Shown here: positions 3,871 to 58,487 of the stretch, one piece after another
Layout: every line of letters begins with the position of its first letter
Position numbering within the stretch: the stretch's first letter is position 1
Assembly (NCBI RefSeq): GCF_033095965.1
Contig: NZ_AP026801.1
Span: 1 to 64,000 of the forward strand
Origin: Xylocopilactobacillus apis
Lineage (GTDB): Bacteria; Bacillota; Bacilli; Lactobacillales; Lactobacillaceae
DNA: 64,000 nt
Direction of reading: 5' to 3'
Notes under the pieces: generated by a model
What the model was told of the DNA's origin: nothing
The model's input: only the letters and a program-made list of their open reading frames with translations
Database searches by the model: none
Translations under genes and position numbers: made by a program

Positions 3871-6501
3871 ATGAGTTCAGGTCAGAATAATAGATTAGAA
3901 GAAGTTAAAAAATTTCTGTCCGAGATACTTTCAGGCGAATTAACCGGATATAAAATCCAACAGCGTAATGATGAGATGTTTCAGCTTACTCAGTGGGCTC
4001 AAAAACAAAATTTAATCACCGGTGTTGATTTTCGTACTGTATCCGATCAAGTTGCAATGATCGATTATTCTGGGGTTCAGGTAACTGATAAGGGAAGACA
4101 AATACTTGCAGAAAGTGGTGTTCAGATTCCCGAACCGCAGAAAAAAACAGATAATGTAGTGCCTTTAAATGCTCAGTCAGATCAACAACCTCAACAATCC
4201 CAAGTTAATGTCGATAATTTATTGCAGAACATGAATGCAGGCGATCAAGAGACAGCACAATCTTTACTGCAGTCACTAAGAGAAGGTCGCTCGAATCAGT
4301 TAGTGTACTCAGATTATTTGGATTTCTTTAACCGTAATCCCCAATTCTACACATATTTTATTAGTGCGGGACAAGAAGAAGTTCCTGCACCTCAATCACA
4401 GGAAGTTCCACCAGCAGAAGCAAGTGGAATTTTCTCGCCGGAAGTTCAGAGAATTATTGCTCAAACAGAAAATCAAAAAGCTGGTCACGAAGAAGCAGCT
4501 CCTCAAGCTACCCCATCAGAAATTGATAATTCTGAACCAGTAGCTGTTGATCCTAATCCAGTACCTGAAAAAGAATCAGCTCCAGAGCCAGAAGTTCAAC
4601 CTCAGATCCAGCCTGAACCTGTCCAAACTTATCCAGTTCAATCAGAACCCGTGGTTGAAGAACCAGTTGTCAGTAAAGAAGAAGTTAGTGAACCTGCCTT
4701 TGAATCTGCTCCAGTAGTAAATATTGAACCAGAAGTTAAAGAGCCAGAACCAGCAGTAGAAGAAGCGCCTGAAGAAACTGTTTCTCAGTCTGCTAAAACC
4801 ACAACTCACGTGGTAATTAAATATTTAGATCAAGATCAAAAAGAAATTGCCCCTGCCCTTTCAATTCAGCTCACGAGCCAGACTTCGGCTTATGATGTAT
4901 CAAGTTATCAGAAGAAAATTCGTGACTATGATTTTGTGAAAGCAGAAAATGAAAAAGGACACATCACCAGCCAAGAAATAAATGTTATTTTCCACTACGA
5001 AGCGAAGCTTGCAGAGGGAAATATCAAAATAAGTTATGTAAATCAACAGGGAGAAAAGATTGCTGAACAAAAAGTTGTTCAAGGCGGTCGAATTGGTCAA
5101 TTTTATCCTTTACTTAATGATTTACCAGACCAGTTAGTTAAAGATCTTGATAGTCGGCGTTACGTTTTACAAAGTATCTTAGCTGATAATGATCCAACTG
5201 ATTCTTCACTCATCTACTTTAGTGATCGTGATCAGAATTTTACTGCGATTTTCCGTGAGTTGTTGCCAGGACGGATTACTTTAAGATATCGGAATCTGAA
5301 AAATCAAGCAATTGGCATCGGTGAACGGGTGATGGAAAACAATGTTGAAAATGGTGACAAAATTGCAATTCCTCTCCCCTTGGTTCCAACTGGCTATGAA
5401 TTAGATCAGACCTTACTTAATGGTGATCCTGTTAGTGTTGGTGATCACTTTACGGTTTCGCCGGATGAACAAATAATTGATTATGTCTTTAAGCGCGTTA
5501 TCGCTGACGGTGCAATTATTTTCAACTATGTAGATCAAGACGGACGTGAAATTGCTCATCAAACTGTTGTTCGCGGCGGCCGCTATGGTGAGATTTATGA
5601 CTTCGATGCTAATTTACCGCAGACAGTTATTAATCGAGTTAATGATGGAGTTTATGAAAATAATCCAATCATCAAAGAAGAAACCGAAAATGGGACTGTA
5701 ATTCCAGCGGCTCGAATTACATTTGACAATAACGATCATGAATATTCGGCTGTTTTCCAAGCAACAGAAGCTGCTAGTATTACTATGAAGTTTGTTACAA
5801 CTGATGATAATCCAATTCCAAACGTAACTGATAAAGTAGTTCAAGGAACTCATTATTATGGTGATACTTTTGTGATTCCAAATGCCCCTTCAATTACTGG
5901 ATTTGATCTTAATCGCGTGATGGTTAATGATAAAGTTGCGCAAGTTGATGATCCTGTAATGTATAGTAATCAAGAACAAACAGTTACTTATGTTTACACT
6001 ATTGCAACAAGTACGATCACTGCTCATCATGTCGATCAATTGGGTCGTCAAATTGCTGAAGATCGAATTATTACTGGTCAGATTGGCACGACGGTAGAAC
6101 AGAGTCAGCTGGTATCATTAAGACTCAATCCCTACTATGTTCTAAGCGACGTGTTAACCAATAACAGTAATTATACTTTTACTACTGATCCACAGTTCAT
6201 CACTTTCCATTATCAAGTCGATGATGATTTAGTACCAGAAGTCTTAAATGTATCGGATATAGTTTTACTCAACTGTCTTGATACAAATGGTAATATCATC
6301 GGAAAAGTGACTCCAAGTTCAATTCACCTTGAACCAGTTAAAGTCGGACATGTCTACCTCGTCCATGCACCTGACTTTGCGGGATATCACTTATTCAGCC
6401 AGACTGATACTGTGAGAATAGTGTGGAACTCTGAGAAAGCTAATGATTTTACAATCGTCGACCATCCAAATGGTTTAGCATTTATCTATCAATCTATCTA
6501 A
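3871..6501 (+). CDS. MucBP-repeat protein without signal peptide or anchor
   Basis: The protein has 876 residues and a ribosome site GAGGAG. Residues 1-90 are soluble and helix-rich, ending in a segment (VTDKGRQILAESG) that resembles the winged-helix tail of YjcQ-like proteins. Residues about 90-310 are a Pro/Glu/Gln-rich linker. From about 311 to the end come roughly seven beta-rich repeats of MucBP type. Examples are VVIKYLDQDQKEIAP (about 314), IKISYVNQQGEKIAEQ (about 390) and IIFNYVDQDGREIAHQ (about 550), several with a following GYxL-like element. MucBP repeats normally occur in secreted, LPXTG-anchored mucin-binding adhesins. Here I see neither a hydrophobic leader nor an LPXTG or transmembrane tail, and no better upstream start. 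How it reaches the surface, if it does, is unknown. Confidence 0.8.
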   Translation: MSSGQNNRLEEVKKFLSEILSGELTGYKIQQRNDEMFQLTQWAQKQNLITGVDFRTVSDQVAMIDYSGVQVTDKGRQILAESGVQIPEPQKKTDNVVPLNAQSDQQPQQSQVNVDNLLQNMNAGDQETAQSLLQSLREGRSNQLVYSDYLDFFNRNPQFYTYFISAGQEEVPAPQSQEVPPAEASGIFSPEVQRIIAQTENQKAGHEEAAPQATPSEIDNSEPVAVDPNPVPEKESAPEPEVQPQIQPEPVQTYPVQSEPVVEEPVVSKEEVSEPAFESAPVVNIEPEVKEPEPAVEEAPEETVSQSAKTTTHVVIKYLDQDQKEIAPALSIQLTSQTSAYDVSSYQKKIRDYDFVKAENEKGHITSQEINVIFHYEAKLAEGNIKISYVNQQGEKIAEQKVVQGGRIGQFYPLLNDLPDQLVKDLDSRRYVLQSILADNDPTDSSLIYFSDRDQNFTAIFRELLPGRITLRYRNLKNQAIGIGERVMENNVENGDKIAIPLPLVPTGYELDQTLLNGDPVSVGDHFTVSPDEQIIDYVFKRVIADGAIIFNYVDQDGREIAHQTVVRGGRYGEIYDFDANLPQTVINRVNDGVYENNPIIKEETENGTVIPAARITFDNNDHEYSAVFQATEAASITMKFVTTDDNPIPNVTDKVVQGTHYYGDTFVIPNAPSITGFDLNRVMVNDKVAQVDDPVMYSNQEQTVTYVYTIATSTITAHHVDQLGRQIAEDRIITGQIGTTVEQSQLVSLRLNPYYVLSDVLTNNSNYTFTTDPQFITFHYQVDDDLVPEVLNVSDIVLLNCLDTNGNIIGKVTPSSIHLEPVKVGHVYLVHAPDFAGYHLFSQTDTVRIVWNSEKANDFTIVDHPNGLAFIYQSI

Positions 6502-6516
6502 ATAATCTAAAAATTA

Positions 6517-6542
6517 AAGATCATGGAGACATGGTCTTTTTT
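6517..6542 (+). terminator. Terminator after the MucBP gene
   Basis: AAGATCATG (6517-6525) pairs with CATGGTCTT (6530-6538) with a short loop and a T run. It lies 16 bp after the stop codon. Confidence 0.85.
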
Positions 6543-6661
6543 GTTTTAGAGCTGGGTTTTTAATCGTTTGAGGATATTTTTTTAATTTGTGCTGATTTAA
6601 CAATAACTTTCAGTTATACACTAAATATAGAATTAATTCATTTTAACGATGGAGATAAACC

Positions 6662-8938
6662 TTGAAGAAAAAGTTAGTTATCTTTCCACTGCTAATATTT
6701 AGTTTCTTTGCTTTGTTAATAGTTAAAGCAGAGACAGTTAGTGCGGCAGATAAATTAGTAGCATTTAAAAATGACGCAGGAAGAACTGTTGGTTACGTTA
6801 ATTTGTCCAGCGAGGGCATTTTGGGAACCGATACTCTTGCTACGGCTTTTAAAAAGTTAGGTGCAACTTCTACCGGTGAAATGAATGTCTACGGTCGTAA
6901 ATATACTTTAGTTTCTGCAGACTCTCTCTCTACCGATCCAACAAGCGATATTGGCATTTGGTTTCACGGAACCACTGCAGGTAATACTACCACTGTCGAT
7001 AGTTTTATGAATAGTAACACTGCATCAATTACAGGTGGAGCCGTTTATCTCGAAGGTAAAAATCCGCAAATCCCCGAATTCCCAGATCTGAAATTGGATC
7101 CAACTAATGATAATGTTGATTTTGCTAGTTCAGGCTGGACTGAGATTACTCCCGCAAATTATAAGAACGACATGGTGTGGAATTTTACACGTAATAAAAG
7201 GAAGTACCAGATTACAAGTAATTCTTCTTATGATAATTACTGTGGTTCAGATAATTTAAATTCTTTAAAAGTAAAAGACCTTACGGATCCGAATAATATT
7301 AAATTCTATACGTATGATTACGATAACGGAGTGTCTAGTACAACAGTTCTTAGTTATTTCAATGATTATGGTGGAAATGATAATATCATTTTAAATACAA
7401 CAAATGTTAAAATGTATAAAAAGCCATCTAAATATGGCAATGCGATTGCTGTGATTAGAAGGTTCGATTACCCTACGTTTAGTAATTTTAATACAGAAAT
7501 TATGGATGTTAATCCTGATGGAACAATTCAGGTTTATACAAGTTATACCGAAAGATTAAAAACAAGACTTAATCCAACTTTTAAATATGATACGGATACT
7601 GATCTTAGAATATTTGATGCCAATGATAATAGAATTGGTGGACCAGGAGATACTGTTGGAATATATAAAGGACCAGGAAATACAGTTTACGTTAAAGGAA
7701 TAACTCAAAGTAATCCTTCCATTTCGGTGAAGGCAAATATCCATTATATTGATGTATCAGGTAAGAAGTTACCTTCAAGTGGCAGTTGGTCTCCTAGTGA
7801 TGGAACAGAATTAGCTGGCAGAACGCAACTTATTTCTGCAACCACAACTTCAATTAATAGTAACGGTTATGAGATTGTCCCGGTATCGGGTTTTGCAATT
7901 GTTGGCAGAAGTGATACTACTGCAATTTCTGCTGATGGAAAAAAGTTTAAATTTCCGGCTGATATAGTCAATAAAGCAGTTGAAACAGAATTTAGAGTTT
8001 ACTTTGGATCTAAAAATCAGTACGCGGCACCCCTTAATTCATATGGAAATCTTTATTATGCAGTTCATGCTAATGATGGGACTCATCAATTAGATGATCT
8101 ACTATTCTCTAATGGTGATTCTTCAGTAATAACTGCTGATCCAATACCTCGGCTTGATACTAACATGACTTATGGAATGCCACTTACGGAGCAAGTTGTT
8201 TCATCTGGCGAGTTAGAAGAAGAAAATACGAAAGATTATTACATTTATGTTCAAGAAAATAAGCCAGTAACATTGCGGGCTGTTCCTGACTTTGATTTTG
8301 GTATCCATAATATAGATTTTAGTAAGCACACTTATAATTTTAAAAGTTCTATTCCAAAAGCTGGAAGTGATGTTAATAAACTTAATTTAGATGATTCCTA
8401 TGATAATAATACACCTTCGTCAAATGTTGGTGTTCCAATTGAAAAATATTTGAAAGTAACGGATTATAACGGAGTGTCAACTAAAGCTCGAGCTTTAGTT
8501 GTGACAAATCCAAATGAAAATGATACTAGTAATTGGAGAATTGAAGCAAGTTTAGACACATTTAAAAATGTGAGTGGTACGTATATAAATCAAGCAGACA
8601 TACCTTATTTAAAACTAAAGACTAGTGCTGAAGGTATTGATGATTATGGTCAAAATGGTATGTCAACTTGGCAGAAGTCTTCAGCTCCAATTCTAGCGAC
8701 TGATCCAATAATTTATTCATATAATCGAAATAATCCAAGTGACCCAAGGAATAATCCAACAATCATTTTAAATGGAAAAAATGGAACAAGCACGGCGGTT
8801 GGATCGTGGAAACTCGATTTTGCTATGAGTGATTCTGCTTCATTATATTTTCCATCTTCATTAATACAAAGTTCTGGTAACAAAACTAATTCTTACCACT
8901 CAACATTGACATGGACAGTAGTTAATCAAACTCCCTAA
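6662..8938 (+). CDS. Secreted WxL-domain surface protein
   Basis: The protein has 758 residues, starting at TTG with GGAG upstream. The signal peptide is KKK plus a hydrophobic core, with likely cleavage after VSA near residue 28. Most of the protein is beta-rich, Asn/Ser/Thr-rich and of unknown fold; a MucBP-like strand (ISVKANIHYIDVSGKKLP) occurs near residue 355. The C-terminal part from about 541 fits a WxL domain: it opens with VPDFDFG (541-547), contains the proximal NWRIEAS (W625) in place of WxL, and ends with LTWTVV (749-754), like the usual distal motif. WxL domains bind peptidoglycan non-covalently, so this should be a cell-wall protein. It is upstream of the first large paralogue, and related WxL-like ends occur in the BspA-type genes. 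Confidence 0.8.
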   Translation: MKKKLVIFPLLIFSFFALLIVKAETVSAADKLVAFKNDAGRTVGYVNLSSEGILGTDTLATAFKKLGATSTGEMNVYGRKYTLVSADSLSTDPTSDIGIWFHGTTAGNTTTVDSFMNSNTASITGGAVYLEGKNPQIPEFPDLKLDPTNDNVDFASSGWTEITPANYKNDMVWNFTRNKRKYQITSNSSYDNYCGSDNLNSLKVKDLTDPNNIKFYTYDYDNGVSSTTVLSYFNDYGGNDNIILNTTNVKMYKKPSKYGNAIAVIRRFDYPTFSNFNTEIMDVNPDGTIQVYTSYTERLKTRLNPTFKYDTDTDLRIFDANDNRIGGPGDTVGIYKGPGNTVYVKGITQSNPSISVKANIHYIDVSGKKLPSSGSWSPSDGTELAGRTQLISATTTSINSNGYEIVPVSGFAIVGRSDTTAISADGKKFKFPADIVNKAVETEFRVYFGSKNQYAAPLNSYGNLYYAVHANDGTHQLDDLLFSNGDSSVITADPIPRLDTNMTYGMPLTEQVVSSGELEEENTKDYYIYVQENKPVTLRAVPDFDFGIHNIDFSKHTYNFKSSIPKAGSDVNKLNLDDSYDNNTPSSNVGVPIEKYLKVTDYNGVSTKARALVVTNPNENDTSNWRIEASLDTFKNVSGTYINQADIPYLKLKTSAEGIDDYGQNGMSTWQKSSAPILATDPIIYSYNRNNPSDPRNNPTIILNGKNGTSTAVGSWKLDFAMSDSASLYFPSSLIQSSGNKTNSYHSTLTWTVVNQTP

Positions 8939-45666: not shown

Positions 45667-48600
45667 ATGAAATTAAAACTCACTGGTTTAGTTGGTACAG
45701 CGATATTACTGCTATCACCTGTTGCAAATGCAATGACGGCAGTAGAGAAAGCTGCACCAGTTCAGGCCGATAATAATTGGGATTACGATGTCGATAATCC
45801 TGGACTAGGGTATTATGATCAACTTCTGCAAAATGCGGGACCTAGCGACGGGATGGTGGATTGGTACCCAGCTAAAGATACACTTAGTAATTATCCGACA
45901 GGACAAAAGCTAGTTAAGCAATTAATTGAACTTTCAATCGCAACAAATGATTCTAACTCAAATGCCCGTAAAGTTCTTTTTAACGACACTAATGGTAATA
46001 ATACTAACGCTACTTATAGAGATACTTATAACAAATATAGTGTTGCTTTAGGTTTTATAGCTCAGATTTTAGATTTCAATAATACTAAAAGTGGGGTTGG
46101 TTCTAAGTTGGAACAAGCCGCAGTTGCTGGGGATTACGATTCATCAGATGATGAAGGAAAGAGTGTCATCAAGGGAGCACTACTTAATGATCCAAGCGGT
46201 AAAGCTTTAGGTCATAATATTTCTGATGTTTTGGGTACAGCCTTCTTTGACAATGCTGACGACGCATATGCTCAAATTTATATCAATGGTTATGATAATG
46301 TAGCGCAAAACGAAGCAAATATTATCCGTGAAGCAACGAGTAGTATTACGATTGTTGCTCAAAGCAAGATTACCGGTAATAAAGCGACAGCGATTTTTAA
46401 GCTAAATAATAAAACGATGCCAGAACAACTTTCTGGTTCAATTTTAAATAACAATATTGATGGTGGAATTAAACAAAGAGATCCTAATTATAAGGTTAAT
46501 GGGTCGATGGTAGCAAACGCACAAACCTGGGTTAATAACGGGAACCGTAGTAATAGTCCTACTTTTTGGGTTAATGAAAATGGCAAAGGCACGATCGTAG
46601 TTCCAAGAGGCACCACTGCCAAACAAATTGCTAAAATGATTCTGGATTCAAAAGTAGATACAAATTATAAAATGGAAAATGTTGCGCCGATGAAAGCTAT
46701 TCAAGGTAATTACCAAAAGGGTAAAGGAGCACCATGGCACTCATCTTCTAACTTTAATGCAACTGGGGATGGTGAGTCCTATAACCATAAATTTATAAAA
46801 AATTCTAATCCAGGACCTAATGAAACAAATAAATTGCCGAACGGTGATAATTGGTTTATAGGTGTGGCTGATAATAATAGAAAAGAGGCAAATAATGAAT
46901 TTGCTATAGGAACCCAGGGAAATAGTGGTATATACAAAGGAAAAGTTACAGCACAAAGCTGGTTTAATAACAGTTTGGATACCAATAAATATCCATCTAC
47001 AACTTATAATCCTAAAACTTCTGCTTTTGAAATTCCAGATTTTGAAGCTTCGGAGGGAATACCTTCTTTTGAGAATACAGTAGAAGGTAAAGAAGATTCT
47101 CCAAAAAATCAGCCTAAATCTAATATTGGTAAGGTGACACATTTGTTTAATCCAGTAAACGATGTGGATGCTAATGGTAAATCGATGTTGAGAGAATCTT
47201 GGGATGCACAGCATTATGCCTATGCTTTACCAGAAATAAGTGAAATTTCAAATGGGGCTGACACGGACGAGAAAATTGATAGTTTAGCTAAAAAGATTAG
47301 TGAAAATGGAAGTTTCCAATCGGTATCAGATCCTTTAGCCCAAGTAAAAAAGAGCTTCACTTATGAAGCTCCAGTAAATGCATGGGTTTTTAAGTCATGG
47401 AATAATCCCTATTCTACGGTAATGTCTTCTGAGGGAGCGAAAGCGCCAATGGTTGCAGAATTTGATGACAAGTCTGGCGTATTAGATGGTTCTGACCCCA
47501 AAAAAGCTGAAGGACAGTGGCGTGGAGGATTAAAATATAAATGGTCAGAAGGTAATCTTGTAACAGATACCCAGACTGAAGTTACGGCAGTTCCAATTAA
47601 AGATAATAAATGGACGGGAGATATAGCCTTAACAAACCAATCTAATGTTAACTCATCTGGTAATTCAGTTATAACTATAAGTAATTTAATTGATACAAGT
47701 AGTAGTATTCCTTTTAAATTCGATGATCTACAAATAGGAAATACAGATGGTTCAGGAAGTACTGAGTTTAACGGACCTGAAGCGAAAATAAATTTTACTG
47801 CTGATGGAGAAACTCATACTATAAAAATACCAAAAAAGGTTACTACATGGGCTCGCCAAGGAGCAATTGGGGTTAACCAACTATATGTAAACATAGCTAA
47901 TGAATTTGGAAATCCTAGTGGCTTACTGATTGATGGAGAAGGTGTCAGCCGCTTTTTAACACACTCAAAATTTTGGGGTGTCTATAATCCACTATACAGT
48001 GAAACTAGTGATCTCGATAGTAAACCTCTAATTAAAGTTGCTGATAACCATTTAAACTTTATTGAAACATTTAACACAAATGGTACATTTGACGGACAAT
48101 CTAATCTTCCACGAAAAGAAGCAAAACTTGGGGGAAAGAATGAGTATTCAAAAGAGAATGCGGGTGGCTTGAATGTTCCTAATTTCGCATCCATGTATAA
48201 ATTTAGTGGAATTTTTTCGGTTTTAAAATATAAAGATAATTTTCATTTATCTAATGGAACTTCTGCGGGAATAATCCAAGTAGGAGATAAAATTACTCCT
48301 TCTATTAATGCATACTCTGAAATAACCAAAGATGGGACCTTAACTGCTCCATTAGGAGCTGGTCCATACACTGTTACGCATGCAAATGGAGTACCTTTAA
48401 TCAAGATGACATTTGGTGAAACTATCAGTCAGACAAGAGCTAGTAAAGTAGCATATTTTGACTCTAATTTATATAATCCGCATGGGAATTACAATAACAA
48501 CAAACCAGAAGATGGTTATGTTTCTCAGGATTATTCAATTGGACCTGCTTCGGTAAGCTCAGTTTCACCAAACGATTACGGAAAAGATAATCCTGATTAT

Positions 48601-50352
48601 GTTGGATTTGACGAAGATGGAAATATTGATCGCACTAAGACAACACCGGAGGATGTTGTTGATTCCACAGCCAAACGTAATCGAATTTATGGAAATACTA
48701 AGAAAGTTGAGGATGACCATAGTGAAGGAAGCAATCCTAATTACAAGATGGTTAACCTTAAAGATTTAGACAAATCAGGAACTGCTTATACAGGTATTAC
48801 AGAAGCAATGAAAAAAATGTATGGGATTTCTGATGGTAAGTTCCTTAAAGCTTCATTGCCTCAGTATGAAAGGAATGCAGGTAAGGCTCGGATTAATGTC
48901 GTTGTTTATGACAAAGAAGCGGTTCCTGCTCCAACTAAAGAAGACACAAAACCGTCATTCTCAACAACAAATGTATCTGGCGGTAATGATCCTTTTAATG
49001 TCAGTCTTCGTCCATACACGACAACTTATGATGATGGTGCAGTATTAACAAGTGCTAACGTTCCACAAAGCTTCAAGAACTTATTAACTAAGACATTAGT
49101 AGCCGGTAATCCAGATTTAGTTGACTCTACCGGAAAAGTTTCAAGCAACAAATTACAACAGATCCTGATTAGTTCATTTTTAGAAAGTTGGCAGCAAAAT
49201 GATGACAGTTTTAAGCAGACTGACACGGGTGCTGGTGTAAATTCACCACTTTACATGTATGGTGGTTTTGGAATCAGTAACTCAGATACCAAAAATTCAT
49301 ACGCTCAATGGCCTAAAGGTTATGTTGATGGCACAGGAGATTACAACAACGCAGTTAACAGATTCTCAGAAGACTTCTACCGTGGTGGATCAGATCTGAA
49401 GACAGCAGATGGTAAGAGTACAATTAAAGGAATTCCATTCTCAGCATTAACTGCAGATGTGAGCAAGTTAGATGTAACAAAGGCTGGTACTTACCCAGTA
49501 GTATATACATATACAAATCCAAGTGGTTCCAAAAAAGCAGCTAGCATAACCGTACCTGTAACAGTAAGTAATGCTTCAGCTCCAGTGTTTGCTTTTCAGG
49601 GAAGTACAGATGCAACAATTAACGTCGGCGATAGTTTTAATGAAGGCGATTATAAAGTAGTAGGTTCATGGGCAATCTTCAACAACTATGGCGGAGACTA
49701 CTCTAAACTGCCTGACTACGAAGGGATTAGTAAGAATACAGATGGTAGTCCTCAAGTAACGGTAACAGGAAAAGTTAATACAAGTACTCCAGGTATTTAT
49801 CAATTAACGTATAAAGCAGTAAGTACGAGTGGAGCAACAACGACTCTAATAAGAAATATTACAGTATTGCCGAGAAGTAACGAAAGCACTACAACACCAG
49901 ATCCAAGTGATTGGAAAATAACGTCATATAAGTCAGTAGGACATATTAACTATGTACCTGGCTATGGCATTATGGTGTTCAATGCCCCTGCAGGCACAAG
50001 TACAGGTCTGAGACTAGGACATGGAACTTCGTGGAAGATTAGTCAGAAGGCAGTGAACACGAAGGGAGATACATACTACCAAGTAGGAAGTAACCAATGG
50101 ATTGATGGGAAGTATATCTCATTTAGTCCGATCAACACAGAAATTCCACTAAGAGGAGAAGTTAAAATTATCTACAGAAAAGGTTATGGCGTTAACTTAT
50201 GGAAGAATGCCAGTACGACAAATGGCTATTATCCAGGCAGAAAGTTAATGCACGGCAGCCGTTGGAAAGTAAGTAGCAAGCAAAATGGCTTCTATAAGGT
50301 TGGAAAAAGCCAGTGGATCCAAGGTGAATACGTAAGTTACAAATCATACTAA
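45667..50352 (+). CDS. Large secreted SLAP-like surface protein, paralogue 6
   Basis: The protein has 1561 residues. ATG follows GAGGAGG. The signal peptide ends near VQA (about residue 36). The N-terminal domain opens DNNWDYDVDNPG. The centre (about 345-920) is the most divergent: KSFTYEAPVNAWVFKSWNNP is kept, but RFFVSQDF is replaced by GYVSQDYSIGPAS, and the KLVT...LDEAA block is reshaped (KMVNLKDLDKSG). The C-terminal region, Ig-like domain and two SLAP/DUF5776-like repeats are conserved, with an extra linker (SNESTTTPDPSDW, about 1408-1420) before the repeats. It ends YVSYKSY. It shares its terminator type with paralogues 2 and 5. Confidence 0.85.
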   Translation: MKLKLTGLVGTAILLLSPVANAMTAVEKAAPVQADNNWDYDVDNPGLGYYDQLLQNAGPSDGMVDWYPAKDTLSNYPTGQKLVKQLIELSIATNDSNSNARKVLFNDTNGNNTNATYRDTYNKYSVALGFIAQILDFNNTKSGVGSKLEQAAVAGDYDSSDDEGKSVIKGALLNDPSGKALGHNISDVLGTAFFDNADDAYAQIYINGYDNVAQNEANIIREATSSITIVAQSKITGNKATAIFKLNNKTMPEQLSGSILNNNIDGGIKQRDPNYKVNGSMVANAQTWVNNGNRSNSPTFWVNENGKGTIVVPRGTTAKQIAKMILDSKVDTNYKMENVAPMKAIQGNYQKGKGAPWHSSSNFNATGDGESYNHKFIKNSNPGPNETNKLPNGDNWFIGVADNNRKEANNEFAIGTQGNSGIYKGKVTAQSWFNNSLDTNKYPSTTYNPKTSAFEIPDFEASEGIPSFENTVEGKEDSPKNQPKSNIGKVTHLFNPVNDVDANGKSMLRESWDAQHYAYALPEISEISNGADTDEKIDSLAKKISENGSFQSVSDPLAQVKKSFTYEAPVNAWVFKSWNNPYSTVMSSEGAKAPMVAEFDDKSGVLDGSDPKKAEGQWRGGLKYKWSEGNLVTDTQTEVTAVPIKDNKWTGDIALTNQSNVNSSGNSVITISNLIDTSSSIPFKFDDLQIGNTDGSGSTEFNGPEAKINFTADGETHTIKIPKKVTTWARQGAIGVNQLYVNIANEFGNPSGLLIDGEGVSRFLTHSKFWGVYNPLYSETSDLDSKPLIKVADNHLNFIETFNTNGTFDGQSNLPRKEAKLGGKNEYSKENAGGLNVPNFASMYKFSGIFSVLKYKDNFHLSNGTSAGIIQVGDKITPSINAYSEITKDGTLTAPLGAGPYTVTHANGVPLIKMTFGETISQTRASKVAYFDSNLYNPHGNYNNNKPEDGYVSQDYSIGPASVSSVSPNDYGKDNPDYVGFDEDGNIDRTKTTPEDVVDSTAKRNRIYGNTKKVEDDHSEGSNPNYKMVNLKDLDKSGTAYTGITEAMKKMYGISDGKFLKASLPQYERNAGKARINVVVYDKEAVPAPTKEDTKPSFSTTNVSGGNDPFNVSLRPYTTTYDDGAVLTSANVPQSFKNLLTKTLVAGNPDLVDSTGKVSSNKLQQILISSFLESWQQNDDSFKQTDTGAGVNSPLYMYGGFGISNSDTKNSYAQWPKGYVDGTGDYNNAVNRFSEDFYRGGSDLKTADGKSTIKGIPFSALTADVSKLDVTKAGTYPVVYTYTNPSGSKKAASITVPVTVSNASAPVFAFQGSTDATINVGDSFNEGDYKVVGSWAIFNNYGGDYSKLPDYEGISKNTDGSPQVTVTGKVNTSTPGIYQLTYKAVSTSGATTTLIRNITVLPRSNESTTTPDPSDWKITSYKSVGHINYVPGYGIMVFNAPAGTSTGLRLGHGTSWKISQKAVNTKGDTYYQVGSNQWIDGKYISFSPINTEIPLRGEVKIIYRKGYGVNLWKNASTTNGYYPGRKLMHGSRWKVSSKQNGFYKVGKSQWIQGEYVSYKSY

Positions 50353-51167: not shown

Positions 51168-53711
51168 TTAATTCAAACAGTCTTTTAGAAGCTGATAGAT
51201 AAGAGAAATTTCAAAATTAGTAATTTTAACATTAAACTTATCTTGAATTGATTTAAAGATATCTTTCGAAATTGAAAAGAATTCTTTTGTTTTCGAATCA
51301 TTGTCAATGGTATACGAAGGATCATCATAACGGCCTTTTCTAAGGATCATTCTTTCAACCATTAGAGATATGTGCATATAGAGGTTTAATTTTAATTTGG
51401 AATTTAAACTTAAATTATAATAACTCTCATAATGAGCAACAGCGTTTTGGGCTTCTTCAATAATAATATCAGGATTTAAAAATTGCAGCCGGGTCTTAAT
51501 CCCCTCCACTGAAAACAAGTGTAGTAATTGTTCAATTAAGAGCTTGACGTTTTTTTGAGTTTCGCCCGATTCTTTTAAAATCTTTTTAAGTTTAATTGAC
51601 GCGTCTCGATCAAAGACATCATAAATGTTCATAATGTTCAAAGATAAATCCGAGTTAATATTTGTGGTTGTTAAAATTAAAATTGTATTTGCAAAGAAGC
51701 TCTGGTTATTGTTTTTTAATATATTTATTAATTCTTTATAATCGATTGTAATAATTTCTAATTGATCAGATAGGGTACTTTTAAAAACATCTTTTATTTC
51801 AGTTGATAGACCGATCCCTGACATGCATGAAATAATAATATGTGGATGATCTGCCAGTCCTTCATAATATTGCGAACCAGTTGTTTCACCATAATGCTGA
51901 CTTTCTAAAGCAATCTCTTTAAATGAATCATTTCTTTGAACACGGAGTCCTGTATCTAATGCCATGGCGGTAGTTAAATTATTAATAACGATTAACCGTT
52001 TGTGTGAATATTTTTTGATTTCGTTAAAAATTTGACTTAATGATCCCATATCGAAAAGGATGATTGTTCCTTTCACATAATTATTTTGCTTTTCTAGATA
52101 TTGCTTTACGGAAGAACTAATTTGTTTTATTGAAGTATCTAATTGCATATCAAAGGATTCGAATATGTAGTTACCGCATAATGAATTAACGACTTTTTGA
52201 ATATTTGAGGCAATGCCTTGACCATGGGCTAATAAAATACAGTTATATTTTATTCCTTCAATCTTATTTACAATTGGTGTCATTAATATAAAGAAAAGTA
52301 AGAAGTGACAATCATTTAGTTTGCTTGTTTTAAATAAATCTTCAAATATTTTTTCGAATAAATAAATACTTCTTGGATATTTATTTTGTAATGTGTTTTT
52401 AATAGTATTGTTTTCTCGAAAGATTGAGCTTTTGTTGTAAATAACAATGAAAGCAGTGCAAAGTGAACATCGATTCCAAAAATCTTTATTTTCGGGCAAT
52501 GATAAACCATATTTTTCAGTTAATTCAGTTTGGATTTTAATTTTTAAATGATCGTTAATCAAATCAAGGGTTTTAGGACTTTCAGAGATATTAATTAAAT
52601 GTAGTAATTTCATCACAATGAAATTTTGTTCACTTAATTGTTGATCTAATTTAATTGAATGAATTAAATCATCCATTATTCTTGAAACAGAGGGTTTTAA
52701 TTGCATAAAACTATTAATTAAATTTGACAGTTCAATATTTAAATCATTTTGGGAGGAAGATATTTTTATATTTAATTTGTTAGGTAGACCGATATAAATC
52801 TCTTCTTTTGGTAATAAGTTGACATAAGATTTAGCAAGTAAAAGTTTAATTTTGTTTTCAAGGGCTGCAATATTATCTGGATGATCGTACATAGTTAATT
52901 GTTTGACAATCTTCGTGTTTATGATAATTGGATGTTTAATTTTTTGTGCTTCTAAATAAAAAAAGTTTAAAACTAATGATAGTCGTTCAAAAAAATAACG
53001 ATCTAAAAAATCGGGCAGCTTAATCTGTAAGCCTATTTTTTTATTTAGAAGCAGGCAATCTTCAAATCCGGTAATTGAAATAATAAACCGAACTTGACAC
53101 TTGATGTCTCTTATTGCTGATTTTATTAAATTTAAAAGAAGTTGTTGGTTGTTTTGAGATAATTTTTGAGCTTCATGAATAAATAAAATACCTTTGTTAT
53201 TGGGAAAGAGAGATTTAGTGCTTAAAATATTGTCAAATTTTGAGCACTTTTTTGATTTTTGAAATAATTTAATAAAATTACGTTGGTTGGATACATAATC
53301 TGAAGCATTAATTTTGATAAAAGGATCAGTTTTAGTAATTACTTTACGCGTTAGAGCTTCTTCGTACATTTTTTGAGCTAATAATTTTTTTCCAGTGCCA
53401 TTATTTCCAGTAATTATAAGAGGCAAGTCATTATCTGGATAACTTAATGATTCTTTGCAATGAATAATTACATCAGCTAAACTTCCTTTTGCTCCAATCA
53501 ATTCATCAAAACTACTTTTAGGCTTTACGATCTGCCAAAAAACAGGGCGCGAATGAGTTTTTGTAACTTTTCCTTGTGAGTATAGAGAAGAAAGATAGGA
53601 ACTTACTACACCTCTTGATAATCCAGCAGCTTTAGCTACTTCAATTGTTGTAACTTTTTGATCATGAAAGTTATTAATGAAAATGTTGTATATTTTATCA
53701 ATCGATTTCAA
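51168..53711 (-). CDS. LevR/ManR-like PTS regulator with degenerate AAA+ domain
   Basis: The protein has 847 residues from TTG (53711), chosen because AAAAGGAG lies 6 nt upstream; the longer GTG start places this site inside the gene. Order: winged-helix N-terminus (TTIEVAKAAGLSRGVVSSYL), AAA+ domain, PRD-like region, an EIIA-Man-like domain (LLAHGQGIAS), an EIIB-like domain (IISCMSGIGLS) and a C-terminal PRD. This is the LevR layout, whose members activate sigma-54 promoters of mannose-type PTS operons under PTS phosphorylation. Here Walker A reads GNNGTGKKLLA, the Walker B acid is altered (ILFIHEAQ) and the GAFTGA loop needed to contact sigma-54 is missing. It is divergent from the PTS operon and probably controls it by another mechanism. 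Confidence 0.85.
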   Translation of the reverse strand: MKSIDKIYNIFINNFHDQKVTTIEVAKAAGLSRGVVSSYLSSLYSQGKVTKTHSRPVFWQIVKPKSSFDELIGAKGSLADVIIHCKESLSYPDNDLPLIITGNNGTGKKLLAQKMYEEALTRKVITKTDPFIKINASDYVSNQRNFIKLFQKSKKCSKFDNILSTKSLFPNNKGILFIHEAQKLSQNNQQLLLNLIKSAIRDIKCQVRFIISITGFEDCLLLNKKIGLQIKLPDFLDRYFFERLSLVLNFFYLEAQKIKHPIIINTKIVKQLTMYDHPDNIAALENKIKLLLAKSYVNLLPKEEIYIGLPNKLNIKISSSQNDLNIELSNLINSFMQLKPSVSRIMDDLIHSIKLDQQLSEQNFIVMKLLHLINISESPKTLDLINDHLKIKIQTELTEKYGLSLPENKDFWNRCSLCTAFIVIYNKSSIFRENNTIKNTLQNKYPRSIYLFEKIFEDLFKTSKLNDCHFLLFFILMTPIVNKIEGIKYNCILLAHGQGIASNIQKVVNSLCGNYIFESFDMQLDTSIKQISSSVKQYLEKQNNYVKGTIILFDMGSLSQIFNEIKKYSHKRLIVINNLTTAMALDTGLRVQRNDSFKEIALESQHYGETTGSQYYEGLADHPHIIISCMSGIGLSTEIKDVFKSTLSDQLEIITIDYKELINILKNNNQSFFANTILILTTTNINSDLSLNIMNIYDVFDRDASIKLKKILKESGETQKNVKLLIEQLLHLFSVEGIKTRLQFLNPDIIIEEAQNAVAHYESYYNLSLNSKLKLNLYMHISLMVERMILRKGRYDDPSYTIDNDSKTKEFFSISKDIFKSIQDKFNVKITNFEISLIYQLLKDCLN

Positions 53712-53746
53712 TAGTCGCTCCTTTTTAAACACTATATTGATTAATT

Positions 53747-53773
53747 AAGCACTAAATTTTAGTGCTTTTTTTA
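53747..53773 (+). terminator. Terminator-like hairpin in the divergent PTS control region
   Basis: AAGCACTA (53747-53754) pairs with TAGTGCTT (53760-53767), followed on the plus strand by seven T residues in all. It lies upstream of the operon's likely promoter, so it may insulate it from leftward-gene antisense transcription or act in the regulator leader. Confidence 0.6.
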
Positions 53774-53777
53774 TGGA

Positions 53778-53810
53778 TAGCGCTTAACATGTGCATTGTA
53801 AGCGATAACT
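53778..53810 (+). promoter_or_regulatory. Inverted-repeat operator with overlapping cre site
   Basis: TAGCGCTTAACA (53778-53789) and TTGTAAGCGATA (53796-53807) form an imperfect inverted repeat with a 6-bp spacer, a candidate binding site for the divergent regulator. The right arm lies in TGTAAGCGATAACT (53797-53810), which fits the CcpA cre consensus (TGWAANCGNTNNCW). A sigma-54 -24/-12 element was not found. Confidence 0.65.
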
Positions 53811-53857: not shown

Positions 53858-54286
53858 TTGAAAAAATATCTTATAGCGAGTCACGGCAGATTTGCTAGTG
53901 GATTGAAAAATTCAATTAAAGTTTTAACCGGTAAAACAGATATTATCGCTATTGATGCTTATTTAGAAGAAGAGCCGGTTGATGTTGAGCAGAAGGTTAA
54001 AGAGTTTATAAGAGAACTGGGGGCTGACGATGTAGGGATTATTTTCACGGATTTAATTGGCGGAAGTGTTAACCGCGAGGTGATGATTCAAGTTAAGGAT
54101 AAAAACAATATTGTATTAATCAGTTCTGTTAATTTGCCAACGGTATTAGCAGTTATTCTAGACACAGAACCAGTTACACAAGTACATTTACAAGAAATAA
54201 TCGATTCTACTCCAGTAAAAATTATAGATTTTAACTTGGAGCAAAATAATGAAGATTTTTTATCAGATGATGAATTTTTATCTTAA
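53858..54286 (+). CDS. PTS mannose-family EIIA component
   Basis: A 142-residue cytoplasmic phosphocarrier that takes phosphate from HPr and passes it to EIIB. TTG start with AAAAGGAG 8 nt upstream. The start KKYLIASHGRFASGL places the phosphorylated histidine at H9. DLIGGSVNR at about residue 65 is typical. The acidic tail (NNEDFLSDDEFLS) is extra and probably a flexible linker remnant. It is the first gene of an operon with EIIB (13-bp gap), EIIC and EIID. Confidence 0.95.
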   Translation: MKKYLIASHGRFASGLKNSIKVLTGKTDIIAIDAYLEEEPVDVEQKVKEFIRELGADDVGIIFTDLIGGSVNREVMIQVKDKNNIVLISSVNLPTVLAVILDTEPVTQVHLQEIIDSTPVKIIDFNLEQNNEDFLSDDEFLS

Positions 54287-54298
54287 AAGGAGAAGATA

Positions 54299-54799
54299 AT
54301 GATTAAAATGTTGCGTATTGATGAACGATTGATACACGGTCAAGTTGCTGTTGTTTGGTCAAAAGTTCTAAAAATTAGTCATATTTTAGTTGCTAATGAT
54401 GCTGTTATGAATAATGAGACCCAGCAAATGACAATGAAAATGGCAGTCCCAGATAATATTAAGTTTATTTGTCGAAATATAAAAGATTCACTTAGTATTT
54501 TGTCAGATCCTCGTGCTTCTAAATTGGAAATGTTTGTAGTTGTTCAAAATTTTAAAGATGCAAGAGAAATTGCTGAAAAATTAGAAGACCAAATTGATTT
54601 GATTAATGTAGGTAATTATGGATTACTGCCGGTAAATCAGCATGATAAGTCACAGAAAAAAATAGCTGCAGCAGTTCAAGTGGATGAAGATGATTTAATT
54701 GATATTAAAGCTATCGCAAAGTTAAAGCCTGAATTTAAGGCACAACTAACTCCAGATGCACAAGACAAGAATTTTAAAAAGATTTATGGAGGTGACTAG
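54299..54799 (+). CDS. PTS mannose-family EIIB component
   Basis: The protein has 166 residues and AAAAGGAG upstream. The RIDERLIHGQVAVVW motif has the active histidine at H13. It accepts phosphate from EIIA and phosphorylates the sugar during transport through EIIC-EIID. The C-terminal half (DLINVGNYGLLPV and KKIAAAVQVDEDDL) is typical. A separate EIIB gene, rather than an EIIAB fusion, fits the Aga/Sor/Lev type, but the sugar cannot be told from the sequence. Confidence 0.95.
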   Translation: MIKMLRIDERLIHGQVAVVWSKVLKISHILVANDAVMNNETQQMTMKMAVPDNIKFICRNIKDSLSILSDPRASKLEMFVVVQNFKDAREIAEKLEDQIDLINVGNYGLLPVNQHDKSQKKIAAAVQVDEDDLIDIKAIAKLKPEFKAQLTPDAQDKNFKKIYGGD

Positions 54800-54801
54800 C
54801 A

Positions 54802-55626
54802 ATGTTCTTAAAGGCTTTAGGAATTGCGATCCTTTACTATGTAGTGCTTTGGGTTGGTAATATGGGAGGAGTTTTCCATTTTTCACGTCCCATTATTGTC
54901 GGTCCATTGGTTGGCTTACTCTTAGGTGATTTACATACAGGTATAGTTCTAGGAGCAACATTTGAATCGGTATTTTTAGGTGTTATTGCAGTTGGAGGAG
55001 CAGTACCTGCCGATGCGACAATTGGTTCTTTAATGGGAACAGCTGTGGCAATTTTGACTCATGTATCAGGAGCAAAAGCTTTAGCTGTTGCCGTTCCGGT
55101 TTCTGCTTTAGGGGTAATCTTAATGCAAATAACTTATGCGTATATGGCACTTTTTATTCCTAAATTAGATATTTTAGCTAAAAGAGGAGATGAAAAAGGG
55201 GTTATTAGATACAATTTTATAATGTCTTTTGTTTATCCAATTTTAAATACTATTGTTATCTTTTTCTCAATTTTTCTTGGTGTAAATGCAGTTGGTGATT
55301 TACTGAAAATAATTCCAAAGTTTGTGCAGGATGGTTTTACTGCAGCCGGAGCAATGCTGCCAGCGGTTGGATTTGCAATGCTGCTTAATATGTTATTTAA
55401 AGGAAAATTATTTGGTTACTTTTTCTTAGGGTTTGCGTTGGTCGTTTATCTTAAATTACCAAATTTAGGTGTTGCGATTATTGCAATAGTTATTGCTCTA
55501 ATGATCTATGATATTGAACAAAAATTTATGGCCAATAAGAATTCATCATCAAATAGCGATGTAAATAATGGCAATGTTCAAAAGTTAAGCAGTAAAAGGA
55601 CTGAAGAGGAGGACTTTTTATCATGA
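54802..55626 (+). CDS. PTS mannose-family EIIC permease component
   Basis: The protein has 274 residues and multiple membrane segments. FHFSRPIIVGPLVGLLLGDL and ATFESVFLGVIAVGGAVPADATIG (described by its key GGAxPAD motif near residue 70) are characteristic. With EIID it forms the sugar channel. The hydrophilic C-terminal tail is Asn/Ser-rich. It starts 2 bp after EIIB stops, and its stop overlaps the EIID start by 4 bp, indicating translational coupling. Confidence 0.95.
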   Translation: MFLKALGIAILYYVVLWVGNMGGVFHFSRPIIVGPLVGLLLGDLHTGIVLGATFESVFLGVIAVGGAVPADATIGSLMGTAVAILTHVSGAKALAVAVPVSALGVILMQITYAYMALFIPKLDILAKRGDEKGVIRYNFIMSFVYPILNTIVIFFSIFLGVNAVGDLLKIIPKFVQDGFTAAGAMLPAVGFAMLLNMLFKGKLFGYFFLGFALVVYLKLPNLGVAIIAIVIALMIYDIEQKFMANKNSSSNSDVNNGNVQKLSSKRTEEEDFLS

Positions 55627-56444
55627 CGAAAGATGTATCCGAAAAACAGCAAGATAAAAAAATTATTAATAAAATGTTTCAACATTCCTGGTTTCTTTTT
55701 AGCTCTTTTAATATGGTAAAGATGCAGGGTTACGGTTATGAGTACAGCATGCTGCCAGCGATTGATGAATACTATAAAAATGATCCTGAGGGTAAACGAG
55801 CTGCTATTGAACGTCATTCTAGCTTTTTCAATTGCACTTATGAAACAGCTCCGTTTATTATGGGCCTAAATGCAGCAATGGAAAAAGAGAATTCTCGTAA
55901 TCCATCTTTTGATCCAGAATCAATTAATGCGATTAAAGCTGCGTTAATGGGGCCATTATCTGGAATTGGTGATTCTATTTTTTGGGGAACAATTAGATTA
56001 ATTGCAGCAGGAATTGGAATTCCTCTAGCAATGAAAGGTAATATTTTAGGACCGATTTTATTCTTACTTATTTACCATATACCTTCAATTTTTACACGAT
56101 ACAAATTACTGCAAGTGGGTTACACTTCAGGAGAAAAATTCATTAGTAATGCATTTCATTCAGGATTGTTTGAATTGATCACGAATTGCGCGACGATTGT
56201 GGGGCTAATCATGGTCGGGGCAATGACAGCTAGTTCTGTGACAATTAAAACTGCTCTTAAATGGAATATGGCAGGTACTCCTTTAAAATTACAGGATATT
56301 TTTAACAGTATCATGCCAGGTTTATTACCGTTAGTTTTAACGCTTACAATTTTTATATTACTCAGAAAAAAAGTTAAAGTAATTTATCTATTATTTGGTG
56401 TCATTATTTTAGGAATTATTGGGGCATTTTTAGGTGTCTTTTAA
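55623..56444 (+). CDS. PTS mannose-family EIID component
   Basis: The protein has 273 residues, with GAGGAGG in the EIIC 3' end. The N-terminal part (SFNMVKMQGYGYEYSMLPAI) and the ETAPFIMGLNAAMEKE motif are diagnostic for EIID. GPLSGIGDSIFWGTIR begins the membrane part. The last 60 residues are hydrophobic. It completes the transporter together with EIIC. Confidence 0.95.
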   Translation: MTKDVSEKQQDKKIINKMFQHSWFLFSSFNMVKMQGYGYEYSMLPAIDEYYKNDPEGKRAAIERHSSFFNCTYETAPFIMGLNAAMEKENSRNPSFDPESINAIKAALMGPLSGIGDSIFWGTIRLIAAGIGIPLAMKGNILGPILFLLIYHIPSIFTRYKLLQVGYTSGEKFISNAFHSGLFELITNCATIVGLIMVGAMTASSVTIKTALKWNMAGTPLKLQDIFNSIMPGLLPLVLTLTIFILLRKKVKVIYLLFGVIILGIIGAFLGVF

Positions 56445-56455
56445 GGAGGTTTGAA

Positions 56456-57247
56456 ATGACAAAAAAAATAATTGTTAACGCTGATGACTTTGGCATGTCC
56501 GAAGCTTTTAATTATGGGGTAATTAAAGCATTTCGTGAGGGAATTGTTTCGTCAACTTCTATTATGATTAATCAAGAAGCTGCTTCTCATGGCATTTCTT
56601 TACTAAAAGAAGCTCCAGATTTATACGTAGGACTACATGTTAATTTAACAACCGGGAATCCCGTTTCTGATCCTAAAGAGATTCCAAGTTTGGTTAAGCC
56701 TGATGGTAGTTTTATTGGTTCGAAAGATTTTAAAACTCATAAAAAATTGTTTTCTTATAAAGATGCTTTGAAAGAGACTAAAGCTCAAATTAATAGGTTT
56801 CGTGAAATGTTTGGCTTCTATCCGACACATATAGAGCCACATTCTGCTATGGATGATAATTCAGCTCAAGCCTTAATTGATTGTGCAAAAGAATATAAAA
56901 TTCACACGGCAGTTCCTTTAAAGGGAGAATACGTTCAGCCAAGTCCAGAACTTTATGAACAAGTAGAATCTCCAGTCAACGAAGATTATATGTCCATTTT
57001 AGATCGAGGTGTTCAGCCGGAAGATTTCTTCAATGATCGATTTGGAATCTTAAAAAATGAGAATAATGGTTTAATAACAGAATTACATTTTCATCCAGGT
57101 TTTGTTGATCAGTATATTTTGGACCATTCAACTTTAACACTGCCGCGAGTGCGTGATAATGAAACATTATGCTCAGAAGAACTTAAAGGATGGATTATAG
57201 ATCATGATATTGAACTAATTAGTTTTGGAGATTTAAAGAAAAAATAG
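56456..57247 (+). CDS. chbG: ChbG/YdjC-type carbohydrate deacetylase
   Basis: The protein has 263 residues, with AAGGAGG before the ATG. VNADDFGMSEAFNYG holds the metal/catalytic Asp pair (D10, D11). LHVNLTTG (H61) and HIEPHSA (H125, H129) complete the metal site of the YdjC family. These enzymes remove the acetyl group from N-acetylated di- or oligosaccharides such as diacetylchitobiose-phosphate. Its place directly after the EIID gene suggests that the PTS imports an N-acetylated amino sugar, which this enzyme deacetylates in the cytoplasm. No glycosidase gene follows, so the next step must be encoded elsewhere. Confidence 0.85.
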   Translation: MTKKIIVNADDFGMSEAFNYGVIKAFREGIVSSTSIMINQEAASHGISLLKEAPDLYVGLHVNLTTGNPVSDPKEIPSLVKPDGSFIGSKDFKTHKKLFSYKDALKETKAQINRFREMFGFYPTHIEPHSAMDDNSAQALIDCAKEYKIHTAVPLKGEYVQPSPELYEQVESPVNEDYMSILDRGVQPEDFFNDRFGILKNENNGLITELHFHPGFVDQYILDHSTLTLPRVRDNETLCSEELKGWIIDHDIELISFGDLKKK

Positions 57248-57293: not shown

Positions 57294-58487
57294 ATGAGCA
57301 AAAAATATAATTTCGACCAAATAGTGGATCGCCATCATACAAATTCTTCCAAGTGGTCCCTTGAAGCATACAAAGAAAAATTTAACGAACCTAACATCAA
57401 ATACCCTTGCTGGGTTGCCGATATGGACTTTCTTTGTCCACCAATGGTAATTGATGCAGTTGAAAAAAGAGCAAATCATGGCATTTACGGCTACAGCAGT
57501 TCTAATGAACCCGAAATTGCTTACATGGGCTGGGCGAAACGCCGATTTAATTGGGAGCTCAAAGAAGAGTGGATCTTGCACACACCGGGCGTGGTAACAG
57601 CGATTAGATTAGCAGTTCAGACTTTCACTCATCCGGGAGACCAAGTTCTCATCCAGCGGCCAGTTTACTATCCCTTTAGTGATGCGGTCGAAGACAACGG
57701 CCGCAAATTAGTATCTAACTCGTTAGTTTTCAAAAATGGACATTATGAAATTAATATTGCTGACTTTGAAGCAAAATGTGCCGATCCGAATACCAAAATG
57801 TTTATTTTATGTTCACCGCACAATCCAATTGGGCGTCTTTGGACCAAAAATGAGCTGTTAAAAATGCTTGAAATTTGTGACAAGTATCACGTTTTTGTAG
57901 TTGCAGATGAAATTCACAGCGACTTGGTGATGCCAGGGCATACTCATTATGTTGCCGCCAATCTTGATCCTAAATATGCCCAAAACATCATGACTTGTAC
58001 CGCTCCCAGCAAGACCTTCAACCTCGCAGGCTTACAGTTTTCTAATGTAATTATTGAAAATGATGCAAAGCGTTATGACTTAGATCGCGCGATTAACAAC
58101 GTCGGCATTGGCAATCCTAACCCTTTTGCGATCGTTGCTACAACAACTGCTTACAATGAGGGTGATGAGTGGCTTAAGGAAGTTTTAGATTATATAGAGG
58201 GAAATCTTAATTGGGTGAAAGATTACTTGAGCAAGAATTTACCGCAGGTAAAAGTCTATAATCACGAAGCAACTTATCTTTTGTGGCTTGATTTTAGAGA
58301 ATTGAAACTAACAGATCAAGAACTTGAAGATGTGATTTTTCACGAAGCACTGGTTGCAATGGATGCTGGAACTTGGTTTGGTCCTGAAGGCAGCGGATTT
58401 ATGCGCTTTAATCTGGCTTGCCCGCGTTCAACGGTTACTGGCGCATTTGAAAGTATTCGTGAAGCTTTGGCCAAGCATAATTTTTAA
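57294..58487 (+). CDS. PLP-dependent C-S lyase / aminotransferase (MalY/PatB type)
   Basis: A 397-residue fold-type I PLP enzyme with AAGGAG upstream. CWVADMDFLCPPMVIDAV near residue 40 and GIYGYS are typical of MalY/PatB. The PLP lysine lies in APSKTFNLAGLQFS (K240), and the FMRFNLACPR motif near the C-terminus binds the substrate carboxylate. Such enzymes cleave cystathionine or cysteine conjugates. It is 46 bp downstream of the deacetylase and may share its transcript, although it has no obvious link with sugar use. A terminator follows. Aminotransferase activity is an alternative. Confidence 0.85.
   Translation: MSKKYNFDQIVDRHHTNSSKWSLEAYKEKFNEPNIKYPCWVADMDFLCPPMVIDAVEKRANHGIYGYSSSNEPEIAYMGWAKRRFNWELKEEWILHTPGVVTAIRLAVQTFTHPGDQVLIQRPVYYPFSDAVEDNGRKLVSNSLVFKNGHYEINIADFEAKCADPNTKMFILCSPHNPIGRLWTKNELLKMLEICDKYHVFVVADEIHSDLVMPGHTHYVAANLDPKYAQNIMTCTAPSKTFNLAGLQFSNVIIENDAKRYDLDRAINNVGIGNPNPFAIVATTTAYNEGDEWLKEVLDYIEGNLNWVKDYLSKNLPQVKVYNHEATYLLWLDFRELKLTDQELEDVIFHEALVAMDAGTWFGPEGSGFMRFNLACPRSTVTGAFESIREALAKHNF

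Follow-up and report, generated by a model that had tools for sequence, protein, structure and literature searches.

How does a regulator that descends from the sigma-54 enhancer-binding proteins control its target once the loop that contacts sigma-54 is gone? This question is raised by the first 64,000 nucleotides of Xylocopilactobacillus apis contig NZ_AP026801.1 (the window), where a LevR-like PRD regulator of 847 amino acids is encoded by an intact open reading frame on the reverse strand (51168-53711), divergent from a mannose-family PTS operon. We favor, with a probability of roughly 0.75, a motor-dead, PTS-controlled LevR-family regulator that would work outside the sigma-54 pathway and control a sigmaA promoter directly, probably by activation.

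The regulator and its AAA+ domain

The start codon is TTG at 53711, which is preceded by an AAAGGAG site and gives the start residue shared by the orthologs. Starting at an alternative GTG at 53732 would lengthen the protein by 7 residues, but this codon precedes the ribosome-binding site; numbered from it, the residues His496, Cys629 and His780 discussed below become His 503, Cys 636 and His 787. The domain order is winged HTH, degenerate AAA+, PRD1-like region, EIIA-like, EIIB-like and PRD2. In Pfam, we found one PRD and a weak Sigma54_activat match of 35 bits, as compared to 146 bits for a canonical LevR paralog in the same genome, and the nearest NCBIfam model is DagR. The regulator is a member by descent of the LevR/ManR/CelR family of PRD-containing sigma-54 enhancer-binding proteins (for example, B. 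subtilis LevR), with which it shares the domain order, the mannose-family PTS partner, the EIIA His, the EIIB Cys and the PRD2 His. Unlike that family, it lacks GAFTGA, intact Walker A and B motifs, the arginine finger and a –24/–12 target.

The AAA+ (sigma-54 activator) domain spans residues ~61-293 (52833-53531, reverse strand, as are all features of the protein). The initial annotation had reported that GAFTGA is absent and that Walker A (GTGKKLLA) and Walker B (ILFIHEAQ) are altered, and sequence comparison bears this out: Walker A reads GNNGTGKKL, with Lys in place of Ser/Thr (53382-53408), and the acidic pair is gone from Walker B around ILFIHEAQ (53166-53192). We found no arginine-finger RR in this domain. 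In the predicted structural model (mean pLDDT 78.6), the AAA+ fold is kept and resembles FlrC and NtrC1, and the best PDB match by profile is VpsR. The domain is very probably dead as an ATPase with its fold retained, and contact with sigma-54 would be impossible. In the sensor half of the protein, the EIIA-like phospho-acceptor His496 (52224-52226) is kept in 64/64 relatives and the PRD2 His780 (51372-51374) in 63/64, and both these residues and the EIIB-like Cys629 (51825-51827) are invariant among the relatives that lack GAFTGA. Phosphorylation of His496 and His780 would set the activity of the regulator, as in LevR. Upstream, the window also encodes a surface-type protein of 1561 amino acids (45667-50352), and similar pieces are found at loci L056 and L057.

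Loss of the sigma-54 connection among relatives

We searched several hundred genomes and recovered 64 near-full-length relatives; an initial scan of the genome contigs with a single protein as query had given no match. The tree was built from the C-terminal half only, with the changed AAA domain omitted. In this tree, the 16 full-length regulators that lack GAFTGA group as a single clade with an SH-aLRT of 99. The clade is nested among GAFTGA-bearing relatives and spans seven genera, and its named members include Liquorilactobacillus, Lactiplantibacillus, Loigolactobacillus, Lacticaseibacillus and Pediococcus species. Throughout this clade, Walker A has lost its Ser/Thr and Walker B its acids, and the arginine finger is gone; a set of losses common to 16 members goes beyond chance. 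Identity within the clade as compared to the sister group is 44% versus 61% for the AAA domain and 22% versus 84% for the L1 region; for the HTH it is 66% versus 49%.

The promoter changed along with the protein. At all 17 clade loci (including one split by a contig end; L078, with a split regulator frame, was left out of the counts) the regulator is divergent from the PTS and no –24/–12 element precedes the PTS, while the 46 loci that have both a PTS and GAFTGA all carry a –24/–12 element scoring 10-11/11 before the operon, although these counts stem from essentially one loss event and the loci are not independent trials. At the GAFTGA-bearing loci the regulator is mostly codirectional with the PTS. 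Four apparent exceptions to this pattern were accounted for: at L058 the IIA start is misplaced, at L135 the –24/–12 element precedes an added amidohydrolase gene, at L118 the control unit is duplicated, and L154 is an orphan in a genome lacking rpoN.

In the X. apis genome, rpoN is present and intact (a 436-amino-acid frame), so the possibility that it might be missing, raised by the initial annotation, falls away and there is no link to rpoN loss here. The gene lies near the canonical GAFTGA-bearing LevR paralog, which has its own –24/–12 man operon, with the promoter TGGCATAATTATTGCT preceding its PTS, and which is the sole strong sigma-54 activator match in the genome. Four weak Sigma54_activat matches elsewhere in the genome were checked and rejected as regulators, three being Clp ATPases and one another AAA protein. 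We also observed seven TGGCAYN5TTGCW sites in the genome (G000:C1 737873, 1061371, 1370769, 1484909, 1635432, 1650412 and 2083296) and zero for the reversed control pattern.

Two relatives bear directly on whether the regulator needs sigma-54. In G290 (99% complete), neither of two domain models finds rpoN, and the regulator, operon and control unit are intact; the regulator there cannot need sigma-54 if the assembly is complete at that point. In G453, a truncation in the DNA-binding domain affects rpoN, and the regulator is intact. The sigma-54-independent mode that the initial annotation had proposed is well supported by the sequence evidence, namely the clade lacking GAFTGA, the concerted loss of –24/–12, a conserved sigmaA-type promoter, and relatives that keep the regulator and have no functional rpoN.

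The control region and the divergent PTS operon

We aligned the intergenic DNA of the clade, placing L060, which has a degenerate second box, by hand. A control unit with fixed spacing became apparent: TTAARCAC-N12-TTAARCAC followed, with offsets counted from box 2, by a –35 at +17 (GTGAC[AT]), a –10 at +40 (TA[AT][CT]AT) and a cre at +52 (TGTAAGCGTTAAC). The element columns outscore 10,000/10,000 random column sets. In the window, all elements are read on the forward strand. Candidate operator box 1, TTAAACAC (53725-53732), abuts the ribosome-binding site of the regulator, and box 2, TTAAGCAC (53745-53752), lies 20 bp from it, so that the two boxes share roughly the same helix face. A weak –35, GTGCTT (53762-53767; GTGAC[AT] in most relatives), is followed 17 bp further on by the sigmaA-type –10 TAACAT (53785-53790), and, counted from the inferred start, the boxes are centered at about –48 and –69. 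A conserved inverted half-site, GCGCTTAA (53780-53787; GTGCTTAA in several relatives), overlaps the –10. The cre-like site TGTAAGCGATAAC (53797-53809) scores 12/13 to TGWAARCGYTWNC and its counterparts score 13/13 in several relatives.

The TTAARCAC tandem occurs as one zero-mismatch copy in the 2.27-Mb genome (53725-53752), with no one-mismatch copies. Among nine relatives with a match it is single-copy in six (G290, G453, G393, G251, G046 and G321) and multicopy in G266, G299 and G181; G012 has no tandem within one mismatch. This direct repeat is the likely operator, and the regulator is predicted to bind it next to its own start codon. The initial annotation had instead put forward the inverted repeat at 53778-53807 (TAGCGCTTA...TAAGCGATA). 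That repeat exists; however, its left arm is the –10 with the inverted half-site and its right arm is the cre, and on this ground it was rejected as the operator.

The sigmaA hexamers are weak, and weakest in the window, and a plain consensus scan for a sigmaA promoter does not pick GTGCTT and TAACAT. An early –35/–10 candidate, TTGTAA...TCTAGT, was rejected because its hexamers are not conserved among relatives. At L118, a second complete control unit stands before the PTS, and the unit next to the regulator has lost the –35 and cre and retains the boxes and –10. A terminator-like hairpin with a T run (AAGCACTAAATTTTAGTGCTT TTTTT; 53747-53767) overlaps box 2 and the –35 in the window; most relatives have not preserved its palindrome. 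At L122, L123, L125 and L126, there is a long leader between cre and IIA with complementary stretches (for example, ACGATGATT...AATCATCGT) and possibly a short leader peptide; this leader is not present in the window or at L057.

The divergent operon, on the forward strand, encodes PTS IIA (mannose family, 53858-54286), IIB (sorbose/mannose family, 54299-54799), IIC (54802-55626; nearest curated names aminosugar PTSs, AgaW) and IID (55623-56444). A YdjC family deacetylase (chbG-like, 56456-57247) is likely part of the operon, and a YdjC family gene is also found within the operons of L057 and of GAFTGA-bearing L135. A PatB-like C-S lyase/aminotransferase (57294-58487) is a possible further member. 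The PTS substrate is probably an N-acetylated aminosugar. The clade contains two kinds of PTS, which suggests that PTS partners were exchanged as well; the PTSs of the window and L057 are closest to that of L135, and those of the remaining members are distant from them.

We propose that the bound regulator most likely activates the divergent PTS-YdjC operon from the weak sigmaA-type promoter and most likely holds down its own expression, and that CcpA may repress through the cre overlapping the inferred start site. The putative cre, TGTAAGCGNTAAC, scores 12-13/13 in most of the clade, and the ccpA homolog in the genome scores 399 bits, below the NCBIfam cut-off of 442.

As to the polarity of this control, we hold activation to be somewhat the better supported direction. 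In the opposite arrangement, an equally sigma-54-independent regulator would cover the boxes, the –35 and the –10 and be released when the PTS transports sugar. This is possible, with an appreciably lower probability: the inverted half-site overlaps the –10, the near-perfect AAGCACTAAATTTTAGTGCTT palindrome of the window links box 2 to the –35, and a regulator bound to its own upstream region could act as a repressor with no need for an ATPase. However, weak promoter hexamers are commoner where transcription is activated, both tandem boxes are positioned upstream of the –35 and on about one helix face, and the LevR relatives are activators. A decaying locus, in which a relic regulator stands beside a PTS that is constitutive or under CcpA only, would account for the lost motor motifs, and decay does occur in relatives: L154 (G330) has neither rpoN nor an adjoining PTS, and the Lacticaseibacillus pantheris member L183 (5449-7523) is broken into several frames. 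We consider it improbable for the window, since full-length frames persist across seven genera, the sensor residues and operator spacing are invariant, and dN/dS is low for all domains. In close pairs of the clade, dN/dS is ~0.08-0.14 for the AAA domain, which indicates that this domain is still under purifying selection and that the regulator is no relic; for the HTH it is 0.00-0.08. L154 is the sole other GAFTGA loss that we saw and has a separate origin; its LevR-like gene (6151-8697) retains an intact Walker A.

The presence of rpoN and a canonical paralog in the genome leaves two routes by which sigma-54 could still be involved. The regulator might join the rings of the LevR paralog and dampen it, which we regard as very improbable because G290 keeps the regulator with no rpoN and the tandem operator in the X. 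apis genome is confined to the regulator locus. Least probable of all is that sigma-54 drives the PTS from a missed divergent or distant –24/–12 element. As the initial annotation had stated, there is none ahead of 53858, and our scan of 44-62 kb of the window found none scoring at least 10/11; GAFTGA-bearing relatives with a PTS score 10-11/11 without exception, and the regulator has no GAFTGA with which to drive such a promoter. Of the pair that the initial annotation had set against its own proposal, an rpoN gene plus a functional –24/–12 start upstream of 53858, the former was found and the latter was not. At the level of sequence, the following can be regarded as established: the motifs were lost once in the clade, the promoter was replaced, the boxes, promoter and cre keep a fixed spacing, the operator is unique, and the regulator occurs in a genome that lacks rpoN.

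Origin of the circuit and its relation to known systems

How the PTS may have come under a regulator-side promoter is suggested by the sister group. Tandem boxes are found upstream of the regulator at 9/10 sister-group loci, the second box being degenerate at one of them; a contig end cuts the tenth locus. At L059, L130 and L135, an extra rpoN, oriented divergently to the regulator and preceded by the same tandem boxes, occupies the position where the PTS operon now sits, and at L059 and L130 the –35/–10 spacing equals that of the clade control unit. The gene order at L130 is regulator, rpoN, PTS. If rpoN and the –24/–12 element were lost from an L130-like layout, the PTS would be left under the regulator-side promoter. 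We tentatively suggest that a sigma-54 activator could have become a direct sigmaA regulator by capturing a promoter possibly already under its control. Genes for rpoN inside LevR-PTS clusters were seen at L059 (7930-9207), L130 (9391-10653), L135 (5413-6663) and L065 (15900-17168), and at least in G059 the cluster rpoN is a second copy beside another rpoN. These appear to be sigma-54 genes that serve a single PTS cassette.

The MtlR/LicR class of activators carries PTS-phosphorylated PRD and EII-like domains and has no AAA+ domain; the regulator reaches a similar layout through motor loss. Enhancer-binding proteins that lack GAFTGA and have parted from sigma-54 are already known, among them TyrR, DhaR and HupR (PMC3162934). 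Proteins of the TyrR/HupR/VpsR kind act with sigma-70. Like these proteins and VpsR, the regulator has a sigma-54 activator fold with no working GAFTGA; unlike them, its sensor is made of PRD, EIIA and EIIB domains, and the change in promoter and gene order can be traced among relatives. In the openly accessible literature, we came across no description of such a GAFTGA loss within a PRD/LevR clade.

Transcription by sigma-54 and by sigma-70 differs mechanistically, and a circuit moving between them is rarely visible. In the lactobacilli, close relatives from either side of the change, including one that lacks rpoN, allow the regulator, its promoter and the gene order to be set side by side. 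A Sigma54_activat match thus need not imply membership in a sigma-54 regulon.
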